From Cyanobacteria bacterium GSL.Bin1 (GTDB lineage: Bacteria; Cyanobacteriota; Cyanobacteriia; Cyanobacteriales; Rubidibacteraceae), in assembly GCA_009909085.1 (NCBI GenBank), contig JAAANX010000017.1, forward strand, positions 1 to 39,524: a DNA stretch of 39,524 bases, read 5' to 3'. A program made the translations under genes and the position numbers. The notes beneath the pieces were generated by a model, which saw only the letters and a list, made by a program, of their open reading frames with translations, had not been told where the DNA came from and made no database searches. Every line of letters starts with the position of its first letter. Positions within the stretch are counted from its first letter, which is position 1. Of the stretch, positions 20,606-32,062 are shown piece after piece.

Positions 20606-21637
20606 TTACTTCGTCATTGCTTCAATCTCTTGTGCCATCTGGGTTACTTCTTCTGCACTAAAGACAGGTTGAGAGGGTGGCATAATCGTTGGCCAAGCCG
20701 CAGAAATCTCTCCCACCATCGTTGATAATTTTGCGTATCCTTCTGGATTCATTTGCACCATTTCTTCAGCGCTGTTGTAAAGTAACTCTCGCGCTGTGGC
20801 AACAAAGCCTCTCCCATCTTGATACTCAGGAATATCGGTAAATGTTTCTCCTTGCAAGGCAATTTTATACTCTGCCGCTGCCGTAGAAATAAGTGTCGAA
20901 ATCACTTGTCCTAAAAACTCGGGTGACTGACGCTCACTAGTCGGAACAACATTTTCCGCTTCAGTAAGGACTCCCATTGTTTCTTCATAAGCTTGTTTAA
21001 TTTCTGTTTCTGAAGCACCACTGGCTGCTAGTTCACTGAGGCGGGTGAGAGCTTCATCAACGGGGCGATAAAGTCCTTTTTCTTCTAGACTCGGAGAAAG
21101 GGAACTTAAAATTTCCTCGGCTGGATGGTCAAGGTGAGTTTGTGCCATTTCTCCTTCACCGCGCATATACAACTCAAGTCCAGCGATTAGATGACCTTTC
21201 ATTAAGCGAATATTCGTCATATAGTCGGCATTGGTGCCAACTTCACCACCTTCCCCGCCTCCACTGGCTTCGCCGCCTTCACTAGCTTCACCACCTTCAC
21301 TAGCTTCGCCGCCTTCACTAGCTTCGCCGCCTTCACTAGCTTCGCCGCCTTCACTAGCTTCGCCGCCTTCACTGGCTTCACCGCCTTCACCGCCTTCACC
21401 GCCTTCGCCACCTTCACCGCCTTCGCCACCTTCACCGCCTTCACCACCGTAAGGATCATAGGGGGTAAAGCCTTCGCCACCTTCACTTTCTTCACTATTC
21501 TGAGCAATAAATTGGGTCATTTCTTCAGTCGAGGAAGAAGAAACTGCTTCTGTAGCATGACCCGGCGCAGTGACAGCACAAGTTCCCGCTAAAACATAGG
21601 CCCCAATACCAACCCAGAGTTTAATTTTTTGGTTCAT
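20606..21637 (-). CDS. Exported Gly-Gly-Glu repeat protein
   Basis: 343-residue secreted protein of unknown function. A signal peptide (KIKLWVGIGAYVLAGTCAVT) probably ends at about Ala28. A short linker follows, then a low-complexity region at residues about 63-132: eight GGE triplets and seven EAS units within GGEASE hexapeptides. The last 210 residues look helical and globular. They contain the His-bearing stretch LMKGHLIAGLELYMRGEGEM and then TQTHLDHPAEEI-like sequence (AQTHLDHPAEEIL), which could bind a metal or haem. I do not recognise a named domain. A strong AAGGAGATATA sequence precedes the ATG. It is divergent from ruvC across 153 bp. The anionic repeat should be flexible in the periplasm. 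Confidence 0.8.
   Translation of the reverse strand: MNQKIKLWVGIGAYVLAGTCAVTAPGHATEAVSSSSTEEMTQFIAQNSEESEGGEGFTPYDPYGGEGGEGGEGGEGGEGGEGGEGGEASEGGEASEGGEASEGGEASEGGEASEGGEASEGGEASGGGEGGEVGTNADYMTNIRLMKGHLIAGLELYMRGEGEMAQTHLDHPAEEILSSLSPSLEEKGLYRPVDEALTRLSELAASGASETEIKQAYEETMGVLTEAENVVPTSERQSPEFLGQVISTLISTAAAEYKIALQGETFTDIPEYQDGRGFVATARELLYNSAEEMVQMNPEGYAKLSTMVGEISAAWPTIMPPSQPVFSAEEVTQMAQEIEAMTK
21240..21449 (-). repeat. Tandem 9-bp and 18-bp repeats coding GGE and GGEASE units
   Basis: On the gene strand, 9-bp GGE units change into 18-bp units coding GGEASE. Neighbouring copies are nearly identical in DNA, with synonymous changes only, which shows recent slippage or unequal crossing-over. Copy number is expected to vary among strains. 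Confidence 0.85.
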
Positions 21638-26902: not shown

Positions 26903-27799
26903 TTAATTTTGCGGATCTTGATACCCGGTTTTAGGAGAAGCAGCAAGTTGATTGCGCCATCGTTTACGCCATTGACTCGTTGCTTCTAAAGTACTCGTCA
27001 GTTGTTCTTTTTGACGACGCTTCAGGATCGTCTCAGTTGAAGCATCTAAATTAGGATCACGGTAGGGAATTGCAGCCCGTGTCTGTTGATGTTCTAGATC
27101 GAGTTGCGATAAAGGGGATAAGTCCTTAGAGTTCCAACTCGCAACCGTAGAACGACGATTCATGCCCATTGTTGAAGTGTAAGAGAGTCCTGCTAAATTC
27201 AAAGCAGTTCGCATTGCTGCTGCACAAGAATAAGTGGCAAGGCGTCCTGAAACATCTAGACATTGAGCCACTAAAGCTAGAAATTCTACCGTCCAAAGTT
27301 GCGGACAATGTGGGGGGGAAAATGGATCTAGAAAAATGGCATCTGCAACAAAACCCTCTTGAATTACCACTTGAATGGTGTTTCTTGCATCTCCAATTAG
27401 CAACTTAGCTTTGATCTTAGAGCGATCTAGAAACTGTTGTTGGGCTAAGATGGCTAGCAACTTTGGAATCGGAGATGACCAAAGATTTAACAATCTATGT
27501 TCGCTTGCCGCCTGAGCAACTTGCCAATCGGATTCCAGACCAATAATTTCCAAATGACAATCAGGATTAACTTGCCAAATCGTTTGGATTGCAGCAGCAG
27601 TGTTATAGCCTAACCCATAACAAATATCAAGAATTTTGAGATGAGATTGTTGTTGCGCTTTTTCGGCCAAATGACAGGGCGTGATAAATTTTTCTTGGGC
27701 TTCTTCTTTTGCGCCCCGTAACGAATGGAAAGTTTCCTCAAATTCAGGAGATAAGAACGTGTAAGAACCATCAGAGGTCTGTTGAGGAGTAAAACTCAT
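26903..27799 (-). CDS. mnmD: tRNA (mnm5s2U34)-methyltransferase, MnmD/MnmC-like
   Basis: 298-residue SAM-dependent methyltransferase of the DUF752 family, the stand-alone version of the methyltransferase half of MnmC, which completes mnm5(s2)U at the tRNA wobble position. Conserved stretches are GSYTFLSPEFEETFHSLRGA (substrate side), the SAM loop ILDICYGLGYNTAAA, IGLESD at the end of the second strand, and the family hallmark AIFLDPFSPPHCPQLW. The RRSTVASW region near the C-terminus fits as well. The last 60 residues are basic and may contact tRNA. The start overlaps the stop of the histidine kinase gene by 4 bases (ATGA), so it is the third gene of that operon. The FAD oxidase half of MnmC is absent. 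Confidence 0.85.
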   Translation of the reverse strand: MSFTPQQTSDGSYTFLSPEFEETFHSLRGAKEEAQEKFITPCHLAEKAQQQSHLKILDICYGLGYNTAAAIQTIWQVNPDCHLEIIGLESDWQVAQAASEHRLLNLWSSPIPKLLAILAQQQFLDRSKIKAKLLIGDARNTIQVVIQEGFVADAIFLDPFSPPHCPQLWTVEFLALVAQCLDVSGRLATYSCAAAMRTALNLAGLSYTSTMGMNRRSTVASWNSKDLSPLSQLDLEHQQTRAAIPYRDPNLDASTETILKRRQKEQLTSTLEATSQWRKRWRNQLAASPKTGYQDPQN

Positions 27800-29085
27800 T
27801 TTTTAGAAAAGACAGACTGAGTTATGGGCAAGTAAACAGTAAAGCAACTGCCTTGACCGGGGTTAGAAGTCAATGTGATTTTACCACCATGTTGTTGTGC
27901 AATAGCGCGGGCAATGGGAAGACCCAAGCCCGTACCCTGTTTGCGTTGTGACCGCGAGGGGTCAGCCCGCCAAAATCGCTCGAAAACTAATGCTTGTGCT
28001 TCTGGCGCAATCCCTACTCCGGTATCAAGGAAACTCACTTGGCAAAGACGATGAGTACGAGTCAGGCAAATCGTCACTGAGCCACCTTCTGGAGTATATT
28101 GTAGGGAATTTCGTAGTAAATTAGCAAATAAACGATGCAACTGATCGCTATCTCCGACCACAACTGCATCTTCATGTATTTTGCACTCAAGTGTGATCCC
28201 TTCTGCTTCTGCCATCGGTTCAAATAGTTCTACTAAATCTTGTAGCATTTCTTCGATGTCAATCGGTCGCCAAGAATGAATGGGAGGGGTTTGGGTCGCG
28301 TCAGAACGAGCAAGAAACAGTAAATTTTCAATGAGGCGACTCATTTGCTCGGTTGCACTAGCAATTGCCGTTATTTTCCTAATATCTTTACTATGAATAC
28401 GCTCAGGGTGATTTTGCATTACCTCCACAGAGCTTTTAATTGCAGCTAAAGGGCTTCTGAGTTCGTGAGACGCATCAGCAGTAAATTGCCGGAGTTGCTT
28501 GAGATTTTTTTCAAGGGGAGCAAGCGCTTTGCGGGTTAACCAAATTCCCCCAACCGCGGCAAATCCGACTGCCACTGTACCCCCAGTAATCAACCCCCAA
28601 AGCAGTTGTTGTTGAGAAGCTTGTAATTCTTCGGTCGATTGAGAGGCGCGAATATACCCTTCTAAACTAGGCTGGTCAGAAGTCGGGCGATCGCGAAAGA
28701 CTGAAATTGTATAGGAACGGATATTATGGGGAGAAGATTCAATTTTTTGCGTTTGTGTTCCCGTTTTAGGAAGGGCATCAACAGTCAATTGTCCGCGAGT
28801 TGCGAGTAAACGTCCTTGAGGATCAAACCACTCTAGACTTTGGTGATCGCGATTAAAAATATCTCGCCAAGGGACTTCATCAACACTATTGAGATACTCA
28901 CTTCCTCTTTGCTGCACTTTTGTATGAAACGGAGTAGCCGCTTGTGCCAGAGTCAGTAATTTTTTATCCAGTTGCCGGTAGAAGCTATGACTGACCAATA
29001 TATAAGTTCCACTCCCAAAAAGAGCAAGAATGGCGCTAATTACTCCCAGATAAGAAAGTAATAATCGCCAGTGCAGATCACTCAC
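27796..29085 (-). CDS. Sensor histidine kinase
   Basis: Membrane-bound kinase of a two-component system, 429 residues from the GTG chosen here. Two membrane helices (LLLSYLGVISAILALFGSGT and LLWGLITGGTVAVGFAAVGG) enclose a periplasmic sensor domain of about 120 residues. A HisKA domain follows, with phospho-acceptor His207 in DASHELRSPLAAIK. The ATPase domain has N-box NLLRNSLQYTPEGG, G1 DTGVGI, F-box FERFWRADPSRSQRKQGTGL and GLPIARAIAQQHGG. An ATG further upstream (29148 or 29136) would add about 20 residues and overlap the regulator gene; the GTG at 29085, 19 bases after it, fits the usual N-terminus better. The layout resembles RppB/NrsS-type cyanobacterial kinases, but the signal is unknown. 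Confidence 0.9.
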   Translation of the reverse strand: MSDLHWRLLLSYLGVISAILALFGSGTYILVSHSFYRQLDKKLLTLAQAATPFHTKVQQRGSEYLNSVDEVPWRDIFNRDHQSLEWFDPQGRLLATRGQLTVDALPKTGTQTQKIESSPHNIRSYTISVFRDRPTSDQPSLEGYIRASQSTEELQASQQQLLWGLITGGTVAVGFAAVGGIWLTRKALAPLEKNLKQLRQFTADASHELRSPLAAIKSSVEVMQNHPERIHSKDIRKITAIASATEQMSRLIENLLFLARSDATQTPPIHSWRPIDIEEMLQDLVELFEPMAEAEGITLECKIHEDAVVVGDSDQLHRLFANLLRNSLQYTPEGGSVTICLTRTHRLCQVSFLDTGVGIAPEAQALVFERFWRADPSRSQRKQGTGLGLPIARAIAQQHGGKITLTSNPGQGSCFTVYLPITQSVFSKK

Positions 29086-29104
29086 TGGTGAGCGAGGCGG
29101 AAAC

Positions 29105-29779
29105 TTACATTTCTTTAAGACGATATCCCAAACCATAAACGGTCTCAATGAAATCAGGCGGTGCTCCTGCTAATTTTAGCTTTTGTCGTAATCCCTTAAT
29201 GTGGGCTCGCACAGTATGTTCTTCGGGACAACTTTCAAATGCCCAGAGATGATCTAAAATTTGAGTCCGACTAAAAACACGACGGCCACTACGCAAAAAC
29301 ATCTCCAGCAGACGATACTCCTTTGGACTCAAGGATAAATGAGATTCTTCATAAGTAACTTCACAAGAATTTGGATCTAGTTTCAGGGGTCCCCAAGTTA
29401 AAGCAGGTGAAAAATTAGTTTGATGGCGACGTAGGAGAGCACGAGTTCTAGCTGCTAACTCTTGGAGCTCAAACGGTTTAACAAGGTAGTCATCTGCCCC
29501 AGCATCAAGCCCAACGACTTTATCGGTTGTAGTGTCCCGAGCCGTTAACATCAAAATTGGAGTGGTATTCTCCTGAGAACGCAAACGCTGACAGATGGTA
29601 ATCCCATCTAATTGCGGAAGCATAATATCTAGCAAAATTAGATCGTAATGAAATGTGCTGGCAAGTTCAAAACCGGTTAGACCATTGTCTGCAACTTCCA
29701 CGGCATAGTTTTGATCGCTGAGATCTTCGGCAACGGCTTCACTGAGGCGTTCATCATCTTCAACAATTAAAATTTTCAT
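29105..29779 (-). CDS. OmpR-type response regulator
   Basis: 224-residue DNA-binding response regulator. The receiver domain has Asp8-Asp9, phospho-acceptor Asp51 in DLILLDIMLP, Thr79 and Lys101 (DDYLVKPFE). The C-terminal winged helix (residues about 130-222) shows LSPKEYRLLEMFLRSGRRVF and then VRAHIKGLRQKL with the ending ETVYGLGYRL, typical of the OmpR/PhoB subfamily. The gene is first in a regulator-kinase-mnmD operon. The 238 bases between it and the repeat-protein gene downstream in the window hold its promoter. Possible target genes are not visible. Confidence 0.95.
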   Translation of the reverse strand: MKILIVEDDERLSEAVAEDLSDQNYAVEVADNGLTGFELASTFHYDLILLDIMLPQLDGITICQRLRSQENTTPILMLTARDTTTDKVVGLDAGADDYLVKPFELQELAARTRALLRRHQTNFSPALTWGPLKLDPNSCEVTYEESHLSLSPKEYRLLEMFLRSGRRVFSRTQILDHLWAFESCPEEHTVRAHIKGLRQKLKLAGAPPDFIETVYGLGYRLKEM

Positions 29780-30017: not shown

Positions 30018-30647
30018 TTATTGGAGTGCTTCCTCTGGTTGTTTTCCTTCTTCTGTCTCTTCAGAGGGTTCCTCATTCACAGGTACGAATCCTCCCGTTG
30101 TGCCAGGTTGTTCTTCCTCTGCAACCTCTTCTTCCGGAGTGGTTTCATCTTCAGCAGTCACATCCTCTGCCGGAGTGGTTTCATCTTCAGCAGTCACATC
30201 CTCTGCCGGAGTGGTTTCATCTTCAGCAGTCACATCCTCTGCCGGAGTAGTTTCATCTTCAGCCGTCATATCTTCGGCCGGAGTAGTTTCATCTTCAGCC
30301 GTCATATCCTCTGCCGGAGTGGTTTCATCTTCAGCCGTCATATCTTCGGCCGGAGTGGTTTCATCTTCAGCCGTCATATCTTCGGCCGGAGTGGTTTCAT
30401 CTTCAGCCGTCATATCCTCGGCCGACTCCATTTCAGCGCCGGTATCCGTTTCTGAATAGGGAGCAGTTTCTTCTTCCGTTGGCGCTTCCCCAGTCATTTC
30501 AGATGTACTTTCTGCACCAGAATCTTCAGTCATTGTTTCTGATGCCACTTGGGGAGAAGTCGTTTCTCCTTCTTGCGCCTCAGCTCTATAAGTAGATAAA
30601 GGGAAAATTGAGGTTGCTAGTAATAAAGCGATTAGTTGAGCTTTCAT
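30018..30647 (-). CDS. Exported acidic repeat protein (12-residue repeat)
   Basis: 209-residue, very acidic secreted protein. The signal peptide MKAQLIALLLATSIFPLS probably ends at AEA (24) before Gln25; there is no lipobox. Residues 76-171 are eight tandem copies of AED(M/V)TAEDETTP. The flanks are also low-complexity and rich in Glu, Thr and Ser. No fold or enzyme motif is visible, so it is likely an extended anionic chain in the periplasm or outside the cell. CAAGGAGAA precedes the ATG. The signal-peptide DNA is almost the same as that of the neighbouring gene at 30824-31474, so the two are paralogues at least in their 5' ends. Function unknown. Confidence 0.78.
   Translation of the reverse strand: MKAQLIALLLATSIFPLSTYRAEAQEGETTSPQVASETMTEDSGAESTSEMTGEAPTEEETAPYSETDTGAEMESAEDMTAEDETTPAEDMTAEDETTPAEDMTAEDETTPAEDMTAEDETTPAEDMTAEDETTPAEDVTAEDETTPAEDVTAEDETTPAEDVTAEDETTPEEEVAEEEQPGTTGGFVPVNEEPSEETEEGKQPEEALQ
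30135..30422 (-). repeat. Eight tandem 36-bp repeats
   Basis: The 36-bp unit codes AED(M/V)TAEDETTP. Three copies at the C-terminal side share the Val variant and five share Met, which shows block-wise amplification. DNA differences between copies are few. The array stays in frame, so copy-number changes would alter protein length without breaking the gene. Confidence 0.9.
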
Positions 30648-30823
30648 AAGTTTCTCCTTGAATTCTAGTTGGGTACGGTTTGTGTGATTATTCTAAGAAC
30701 GATGAGTTTTAAGACTCACTGACCCTTTTTGGCTGAAGTGTTTCTCTTCTGCTCAAGCAAAAGATTGGTTGGATTAATTAACAAGAGGGAATGAGTTCCC
30801 CTCATTAAGATTCTGGATTGATC

Positions 30824-31474
30824 CTATTGAGCAGTAGAATCTTCAGGAGCCTTCTTGAAGCCTGTGTCTTCACTTAACTCATCAGTAGCTTCTCCAGAAA
30901 CTTCAGATTCGCCTTCTGTACTGAAGTCAAATTCATCTTCTGTCGACATTTGAGTAGATGAGTCTTCAGGAGTTTCCTCGATACTTTTTTCTCCACCTAA
31001 CTCATCAGTAGCTCCTCCAGTCATACCAGAGTCGCCTTCAGGAGCCATCCCTGAATCTTCCGGCATTGATTCTCCAGTCATACCAGAGTCGCCTTCAGGA
31101 GCCATACTGGAATCTTCCGGCATCGACTCTTCAGTCATTCCTGAATCTTCCGGCATCGATTCTCCAGTCATCCCGGACTCGTCTTCAGGAGCCATACTGG
31201 AATCTTCCGGCATCGACTCTTCAGTCATTCCTGAATCTTCCGGCATCGATTCTTCAGTCATTCCTGAATCTTCCGGCATCGATTCTTCAGTCATCCCTGA
31301 ATCTTCCGGCATCGACTCTTCAGTCATCCCTGAATCTTCCGGCATCGACTCTTCAGTTGTAGGTGATTCTTCTACGGTTGAATCAGGAGATTCAGTATCA
31401 CCACCACCACCAGCACAAGCTGATAAAGGGAAAATTGAAGTTGCTAGTAATAAAGCAATCAGTTGAGTTCTCAT
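30824..31474 (-). CDS. Acidic repeat lipoprotein (11-residue repeat)
   Basis: 216-residue predicted lipoprotein. The signal peptide MRTQLIALLLATSIFPLSAC ends with the lipobox LSAC, so Cys20 should be lipid-modified. A Gly run follows. Residues 40-153 carry eight copies of ESMPEDS in a unit of about 11 residues (MTEESMPEDSG), some interrupted by MAPE(G/D)-type spacers. The C-terminal 60 residues are acidic without a recognisable domain. The leader and signal-peptide DNA closely match the next gene in the same direction, while the repeat unit is different. It is likely an anionic surface or periplasmic protein of unknown function. Confidence 0.78.
   Translation of the reverse strand: MRTQLIALLLATSIFPLSACAGGGGDTESPDSTVEESPTTEESMPEDSGMTEESMPEDSGMTEESMPEDSGMTEESMPEDSGMTEESMPEDSSMAPEDESGMTGESMPEDSGMTEESMPEDSSMAPEGDSGMTGESMPEDSGMAPEGDSGMTGGATDELGGEKSIEETPEDSSTQMSTEDEFDFSTEGESEVSGEATDELSEDTGFKKAPEDSTAQ
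31016..31357 (-). repeat. Tandem 33-bp repeats with spacers
   Basis: Eight ESMPEDS-coding units, most spaced 33 bp apart, with three MAPE-type spacer blocks that are themselves duplicated. The higher-order pattern suggests duplication of larger blocks on top of single-unit slippage. Confidence 0.85.
31422..31474 (-). repeat. Duplicated signal-peptide segment (partner at 30595-30647)
   Basis: The first 53 bases of the two repeat-protein genes differ at only five positions, and similarity extends through the Shine-Dalgarno region (CAAGGAGAA). It stops sharply after the Phe-Pro-Leu-Ser codons. This marks a duplicated export leader joined to unrelated repeat arrays. Confidence 0.85.
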
Positions 31475-31546
31475 AACTGTTCTCCTTGAAATTTAGTTCA
31501 ATTAGTTAATAGGTCAATTAATTGGGGATTATTAAACGTAAGCAGC

Positions 31547-32062
31547 TTAATTTTCCAAATAATTTTTGACTTGCTGCTGAAGTTCTGGATCTTGTCGCAC
31601 TGCAATCCAAATTTCCTGAAACCGTTCTATCTGTAAACCTTCATCAGTAATGGCTGCTTCAATGTCTGCTTGTGCATCTTGTTCAATTTGCTCGATTTGA
31701 GCATCAGCTTGCTGAAACTGTTCTTGCTTCTCTTCACTGACATTAGATGCTTCTGAATCGCTACTCTCAGGCTGCTGTTGTTGTCGCAGCAATTCATTAT
31801 ATTCTTTGATCGTTAGTCCTTGTTCCTCGATCGCTTCTACCATTTTCTGGCGAGATTCATCTTGGATTGTTTGGACCACTTTAAAGGCACTCGCAAAGCT
31901 TTGAATTTCTTCATCATTTACTTCGATAGAAGTGTTTTGCTCAGGAGTAACAGTAGGATTATTTTGTTCTGCTGGAGTTTGTTGTTGTGCTAGGGTTGCA
32001 GTTTGACCTGCCAGCAAGAAAACAGATGCTGTTGCTCCTGCCAGGATAGAAAGGTACTTCAT
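31547..32062 (-). CDS. DUF4168 exported protein
   Basis: 171-residue secreted protein of the DUF4168 family. The signal peptide (KYLSILAGATASVFLLAG) probably ends at TLA before the Gln run. A Gln/Pro/Asn-rich linker follows, then the helical DUF4168 domain in two similar halves: FASAFKVVQTIQDESRQKM with EEQGLTIKEYNELL, and FQQADAQIEQIEQDAQAD with DEGLQIERFQEIWIAVRQDP. The ATG at 32062 has GGAG seven bases upstream and is preferred over the TTG at 32074. The family is frequent in cyanobacteria, and its function is unknown. It lies 72 bp upstream of the lipoprotein gene on the same strand and may share a transcript. Confidence 0.85.
   Translation of the reverse strand: MKYLSILAGATASVFLLAGQTATLAQQQTPAEQNNPTVTPEQNTSIEVNDEEIQSFASAFKVVQTIQDESRQKMVEAIEEQGLTIKEYNELLRQQQQPESSDSEASNVSEEKQEQFQQADAQIEQIEQDAQADIEAAITDEGLQIERFQEIWIAVRQDPELQQQVKNYLEN

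Follow-up and report, generated by a model that had tools for sequence, protein, structure and literature searches.

Tandem exported acidic repeat proteins with a conserved leader in a cyanobacterial genus

Conserved leaders joined to differing mature parts are known from the Erp (OspE/F-related) lipoproteins of Lyme Borrelia, for which the accessible part of one account (PMC10016077) describes conserved leader polypeptides in front of differing mature regions, as in the two tandem genes, A and B, reported here. According to the same excerpt, the first mature residues of the Erp proteins are conserved too. The Erp proteins are prophage-borne surface lipoproteins of a spirochaete, whereas the present genes lie on cyanobacterial chromosomal contigs and encode acidic repeats; the likeness drawn here is one of pattern only.

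A second comparison is offered by the halophiles that rely on compatible solutes. Their periplasmic proteins stand out as acidic in the available portion of PMC3817357, and the corresponding portion of PMC9006882 reports the same periplasmic acidity and also argues for acidic cytosolic proteins. In these organisms, as here, the acidic enrichment faces the outside salt. However, as portrayed in those portions, the halophile proteins are ordinary proteins with a shifted composition, whereas the bodies of A and B are repeat polyanions with net charges of -32 and -27 per 100 residues, respectively.

Two further systems are cyanobacterial neighbours of the genes. Proteins of the DUF4168 family (PF13767) are encoded next to them and, in one relative (genome G002), are fused to a leader-repeat protein. 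The regulator-kinase gene order of the RppA/RppB two-component system recurs at the locus, but the regulator scores under the RppA cut-off. A salt transcriptome of Halothece PCC 7418 (PMC9374696) treats two-component genes in salt-acclimated cells; the words rppA, lipoprotein, periplasm and acidic do not occur in its main text. The literature searched held no paper with the word DUF4168, and no paper on the acidic-leader family was among the matches listed.

Architecture of the two genes

The window, i.e. the whole stretch of 39,524 nt analysed, is contig C17 of a 4.82-Mb genome in 210 contigs (the halophilic Cyanobacteria bacterium GSL.Bin1; G000). It was compared with genomes taken one per species, among which G000 to G005 form the genus set (n = 6) and G006 represents a sister genus. 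The following features are discussed:

27796..29148, minus strand: RppB-like sensor histidine kinase, its ORF overlapping rppA; kinase assignment and name by reading
29105..29779, minus strand: RppA-like response regulator; NCBIfam RppA (NF041734) at 221.9 bits, under the cut-off of 250 bits
29961..29994, minus strand: inverted repeat ggggaattcat/atgaattcccc 3′ of A, then TTTT; possible terminator, found by eye, with a loop exceeding the limit of the hairpin scan
30018..30647, minus strand: gene A, exported acidic repeat protein of 209 aa (ORF); mature part 37% D+E, net charge -68
30123..30410, minus strand: array of A, eight 12-aa units, TAEDETTPAEDM/V, the eighth divergent; tandem-repeat and motif reading
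30595..30647, minus strand: shared leader of A, 53 nt, 48/53 identical to that of B
30652..30670, minus strand: shared ribosome-binding block 5′ of A, 17/19 identical to that before B
30785..30803, minus strand: terminator-like hairpin 3′ of B, from the scan; weak, with five such sites in the region against a shuffle mean of 2.2 (sd 1.7)
30824..31474, minus strand: gene B, acidic repeat lipoprotein of 216 aa with lipobox LSAC (ORF); mature part 32% D+E, net charge -60
31034..31345, minus strand: array of B, 11-aa units MPEDSGMTEES and longer variants; tandem-repeat and motif reading
31422..31474, minus strand: shared leader of B, 53 nt, 48/53 identical to that of A
31480..31498, minus strand: shared ribosome-binding block 5′ of B, 17/19 identical to that before A
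31547..32062, minus strand: exported DUF4168 protein of 171 aa; PF13767 at 70.1 bits, cut-off 25.8

Comparison of the first 53 coding bases of A and B revealed mismatches only at positions 5, 7, 15, 18 and 36, compared to a best match of 29/53 among 200,000 random 53-mer pairs of the window. Within the first 17 codons, 15 of 17 residues are identical, with three synonymous and two nonsynonymous changes. A preliminary description of this DNA had reported the shared leader with its five differences, together with repeat units of 36 and 33 bp that differ in sequence, and both observations hold: the tandem array of A consists of 8.2 copies of 36 bp (30130-30424), and that of B of 7.8 copies of 33 bp (31110-31357) with a higher order of 90 bp.

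The same description stated that the two genes diverge completely after the leader. This is right for the bodies, which match each other at shuffle level (71 of 300 shuffles reach the score), but on the 5′ side the likeness also spans the 19-nt ribosome-binding block, which starts about 24 nt before the ATG (1 of 300 mononucleotide shuffles reaches the score). The similarity extends from about 24 nt before the start codon to roughly codon 18, and the flanks past the block are not clearly homologous in the same shuffle comparison (3′ side, 10/300). The body of B resembles that of the single gene at the corresponding locus of G001 (0/300 shuffles reach the score); for the body of A, the score against the G001 body is at shuffle level (90/300), and the first residues past the leader (QEGE) look like those of the G001 protein by eye. 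Tests on the array units used motifs picked after inspection, and for A they are contradicted by the body-versus-shuffle comparison. Searches with A and B gave zero matches in Pfam at E ≤ 1, PF13767 included, and three matches in NCBIfam, each far under its cut-off.

The leaders also differ at their ends, which the preliminary description had read correctly as LSAC in B and LSTYRAEA in A. That of B closes with FPLSAC and contains a lipobox, as in substrates of signal peptidase II. By contrast, A reads FPLSTYRAEA followed by QEG, lacks a lipobox, and its mature part is free of Cys; the small residues that it has at -3 and -1 (Ala-x-Ala, in AEA before QEG) conform by eye to a signal peptidase I site. 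With the lipobox Cys missing and an Ala-x-Ala site present, signal peptidase I probably cleaves A and so sets it free. The codons at the lipobox are GCT TGT in B and in the G001 gene, compared to ACT TAT in A. Since a Cys closes the leader in 10 of the 11 members of the family described below, always after Ala and with A as the sole exception, its absence in A looks derived and the lipoprotein form ancestral. A strict lipobox, L-x-[AGS]-C with Leu at -3, is found in six of the 11; four have Ala, Thr or Gly at that position.

A family defined by its leader, and its loci

A profile built from six leaders, all of the window's genus and including those of A and B, was searched against 148 genomes of the order that were drawn evenly from a larger group (six of the genus and 142 others). 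It returned 10 matches at E ≤ 3e-6, all in five of the six genus genomes, and no comparable score in the 142 genomes outside the genus, where the best E was 5.9e-4. These 10, i.e. A, B (both among the profile's own six rows) and eight relatives, combine the profile match with an acidic mature region. An eleventh member (L039:4129-4293) was added by position and composition, giving three members in G000, two in G001, three in G002, one in G003, two in G005 and none in G004; two weak matches within the genus (G003 C104 and G000 C66, E about 0.01) are uncounted. The search for further leader copies that the preliminary description had proposed was therefore fruitful in the genus as well as in the own genome, where 15 sites matched the DNA of the A leader at E ≤ 10 and three of them at E ≤ 5.5e-9, the third copy (C194:4081) encoding a 60-aa lipoprotein that adjoins sdhB. 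At the DNA level, a degenerate leader pattern occurs at seven places in four of nine family genomes, and the reversed pattern at none.

All 11 members share an extreme composition, with 30-48% D+E, zero to four K+R, no His, and no Cys outside the leader end. They are 50-241 aa long with mature parts of 30-221 aa, the largest including a DUF4168 domain. A repeats TAEDETTPAEDM and B repeats MPEDSGMTEES; the unit spans 19 residues in G001 and reads EPDDGMG/EPDDGFG in G002. Copy number, length and repeat unit all vary across species. Pfam search of the six non-fused relatives found no domain at E ≤ 0.01.

Candidates beyond the genus were mostly set aside. Of the 142 outside genomes, 40 gave weak matches to the leader profile, 46 in all, at E from 5.9e-4 to 0.1; the 15 that were inspected (L058-L072) have 0-20% D+E and were rejected. 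One of these 15, L063 (G037), encodes a lipoprotein that begins with acidic residues and continues into a long body of ordinary composition. A search of 60 relatives with the body of B matched three outside-genus genomes: the G044 match (E 1.4e-6), a repeat frame, has 5% D+E and the G030 match is an inner stretch of a long protein, both being discarded as body relatives of B. In the third, G026, which belongs to another genus, a 98-aa frame (L015) looks like an acidic lipoprotein whose repeats are EEGAEDAGNT and whose leader is unrelated. Because G026 has such a protein, other genera too have acidic repeat lipoproteins, and it is the leader that sets the genus family apart. Lowering the threshold to D+E ≥ 16% brought up no additional acidic lipoprotein across 30 DUF4168 loci and five G004 loci. 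The family is modest and real; its kind is known, and the family itself is undescribed as far as the Pfam, NCBIfam and literature searches reach.

The gene order in the window is clpS - 96-aa gene - 342-aa gene - DUF4168 - B - A - rppA-like - rppB-like - MnmC-like, where the names clpS, rppB and MnmC, like sdhB and rpsB elsewhere, were read off translations, and the listings passed an overlap filter by which some short genes at these loci may be missed. RppA is the best NCBIfam match of the regulator, which falls short of membership and is called RppA-like only; the MnmC-like neighbour matches PF05430. The order in G001 is clpS - 96-aa - 342-aa - DUF4168 - one family gene - rppA - rppB. In G002 (L039:3584-6940), the locus has grown: rppAB is preceded by three DUF4168 segments and by three family genes for acidic lipoproteins, and the last family gene is a fusion of the leader, EPEDD repeats and a DUF4168 domain (68 bits, above the gathering score). 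Between the fused domain and its two stand-alone neighbours, identity is 83% (113 aa) and 58% (127 aa); with the DUF4168 protein of the window it is 51% (130 aa).

The remaining genus members vary further. G005 has one family gene directly after DUF4168 and another adjoining the MnmC-like gene. G003 has the order clpS - 96-aa - DUF4168 - MnmC-like, with neither a family gene nor rppAB; its family gene lies near rpsB instead. G004 retains clpS and the 96-aa gene (L119, L122), with no DUF4168, family or rppAB match in the surrounding 8 kb, and the best match to the window's DUF4168 protein, elsewhere in the genome, is 36% identical. Altogether, rppA-rppB adjoin family genes in G000, G001 and G002; G003 and G005 (a genome 85% complete) hold the family with no RppA match at E ≤ 1e-60.

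DUF4168 itself was found in 60 of 60 relatives searched, a much wider distribution than that of the acidic family. An AlphaFold2 model of DUF4168, made from six sequences, has a mean pLDDT of 74.4 and places helices within 50-170. Foldseek against the PDB gave no match at E ≤ 0.001, and a second structure comparison reached at best a Z of 5.3 with an RMSD of 8.4 Å, as is common for helical models. Sequence comparison with solved structures gave three weak matches, the best (0.0025) on a chimera. No conclusion on function is based on these comparisons.

In the sister genus, G006 encodes a 129-aa lipoprotein (L112:1980-2369) with GSMEESPGGGMTESPG repeats (GSMEESPGG units), 19% D+E in its body and one basic residue. 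It stands, along with a PF01471 repeat protein, between the DUF4168 gene and an RppB-like kinase. Its leader is different, and the leader profile gave no G006 match at E ≤ 0.1. The body resembles those of the G001 protein (0/300 shuffles) and one G005 protein (1/300), with no resemblance to A (203/300) or B (137/300). Since this lipoprotein lies beside DUF4168 and the kinase under another leader, the arrangement may predate the genus even if the leader does not. The PF01471 repeat protein (L112:1236-1790) is an exported protein with 13-aa SEPGMNPGTGTGT repeats. The two L112 genes are possible older relatives of the window genes. A PF01471 protein is likewise encoded upstream of rppAB in G008.

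Two other repeat genes were observed. In G004, L121:1192-3057 encodes a 621-aa protein with a long Asp array of DDDDDYLENEM type and no Pfam match at E ≤ 0.01. It follows an RppAB-like pair whose regulator is 53% identical to that of the window, so that regulators of this type have an acidic repeat gene as neighbour for a second time. Within the window, 20606-21637 (minus strand) has a leader-like start, of a different leader, and an 18-bp array of 11.3 copies encoding EGGEAS repeats; the product carries a net charge of -14 per 100 aa and has no Pfam match.

Origin of the pair

Family genes occupy two orthologous places in G000 and G001, namely between DUF4168 and rppA and beside sdhB; the sdhB-side copy is common to both genomes and divergent from sdhB in each. 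These fixed positions in two species, together with the lack of a comparable score outside the genus, lend no support to a leader that is mobile beyond its loci; the preliminary description had spoken of a mobile or duplicated leader. Its broader notion of a modular family, in which one conserved leader precedes anionic bodies of varied sequence, is borne out by the 11 members in five of six genomes, by the apparent duplication and by the G002 fusion.

The 3′ flank of A, which also lies upstream of rppA, shows homology with the flank of the single G001 gene (0/300 shuffles), which makes A the holder of the place next to rppA. The leaders of A and the G001 gene share 15 of 17 residues despite five synonymous codon changes, at an evolutionary distance where 138 of 223 rppA third positions are identical between the two genomes; on these few sites, the leader is probably held at the protein level. 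Among the first seven units of A, five sites vary, and four of these are synonymous where 21% would be expected, the units not being independent; all eight units have eight variable sites, five of them synonymous third positions.

The simplest account would be a duplication, followed by replacement or rewriting of the body of A and loss of its Cys. We infer that A and B arose as tandem paralogues in a family whose members are small and exported and have highly acidic bodies of low complexity, the ancestor being a lipoprotein processed by signal peptidase II with Cys at the mature N-terminus, a form that B would retain. In A, this Cys would have been lost and an Ala-x-Ala site used instead by signal peptidase I. 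Selection would keep the leader, while slippage and unequal exchange would rewrite or replace the body, whose sole demands might be to stay acidic and nearly devoid of basic residues. As the body of A is no closer to those of B or G001 than chance, the derivation of its repeats by turnover of a single ancestral body is conjectural.

Alternatively, the leader with its ribosome-binding site could be an exchangeable cassette, pasted by recombination onto different acidic arrays along the lines of the preliminary description, a course of events that we consider unlikely. It would explain why the A/B similarity is confined to the stretch from about 24 nt upstream through codon 18, why the body of A matches B or G001 only at shuffle level, and how modules came to be joined in the G002 fusion. 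However, the leaders of A and B are each closest to the same-locus G001 gene (43/51 nt), and the C194 leader is near its sdhB-side orthologue (43/51), compared to 35-37/51 between loci. The exceptions in the leader table are C194 against G003 and the G001 sdhB copy against G005, both 44/51. In addition, A sits in the ancestral place beside rppA, with its G001-like start (by eye).

A possible role as envelope polyanions

Building on an origin by duplication, with the signal peptide conserved and the body turned over or replaced, we tentatively propose, as the best of the readings considered but at slightly less than even odds, that the family provides envelope polyanions, perhaps serving as a hydration or cation buffer. 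The products would be unfolded polyanions in the periplasm or on one face of a membrane, where they would retain water and hard cations (Na, Mg, Ca) at high salinity; they may act jointly with the DUF4168 protein, perhaps under the RppAB-like system. The charges of A and B lie far outside those of the 12 other window proteins, exported ones included, which span +2.5 to -14 per 100 aa; general halophilic acidity is therefore no explanation for them. Surface charge or hard-cation binding would fit the composition and the habitat, whereas phage avoidance, also suggested in the preliminary description, is unsupported. By contrast, metal binding in the form of transition-metal chelation, a role within the scope of the preliminary description, is disfavoured by a composition with no His and with Cys only at the leader end. 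The two-component neighbour suggests, by linkage, control by an envelope or ionic signal.

A bolder version of this proposal, to which we give little credence at present, sees diversifying envelope polyanions in which a constant leader carries changing acidic arrays and at times DUF4168, and in which anchored and free forms, separated by loss of the lipobox, would let a halophile tune the fixed and the soluble negative charge of its periplasm under an RppAB-like sensor.

More doubtful is a specific binding of calcium or magnesium, for example to steer carbonate precipitation or stabilize surface polymers. The carboxylate-rich bodies, free of His and of Cys past the leader, the EPDDG units in G002 and the Asp-repeat protein after the RppAB-like pair in G004 are all compatible with it, but neither A and B (E ≤ 1) nor the six non-fused relatives (E ≤ 0.01) have any Pfam domain.

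Less probable again, the proteins might be accessory to the adjacent sensor kinase and report the envelope or salt state, much as CpxP is an accessory protein to CpxA. The rppA-rppB adjacency in G000, G001 and G002 points this way, as do the repeat lipoprotein and PF01471 protein between DUF4168 and the RppB-like kinase in G006 and the PF01471 protein upstream of rppAB in G008. However, the family occurs with no RppA match in G003 and in the incomplete G005, some copies lie at other loci, and the DUF4168 model has no significant PDB match. Finally, bodies that are nearly unconstrained low-complexity filler drifting by slippage would agree with the freely variable lengths (50-241 aa) and repeat units, but this is improbable for a family in which 11 of 11 members remain 30-48% acidic with zero to four basic residues, and the synonymous excess between the A units gives a further hint against it.

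If the envelope polyanion proposal is true, the family would be a concrete and testable set of genes for a little-studied question, namely how a periplasm copes with molar salt around a salt-excluding cytoplasm. B with its lipobox and A with none would form a natural pair in which to study the contribution of lipid anchoring to a protein that is acidic and unfolded. Moreover, the fusion and the linkage would provide a first functional lead for the cyanobacterial DUF4168 family.
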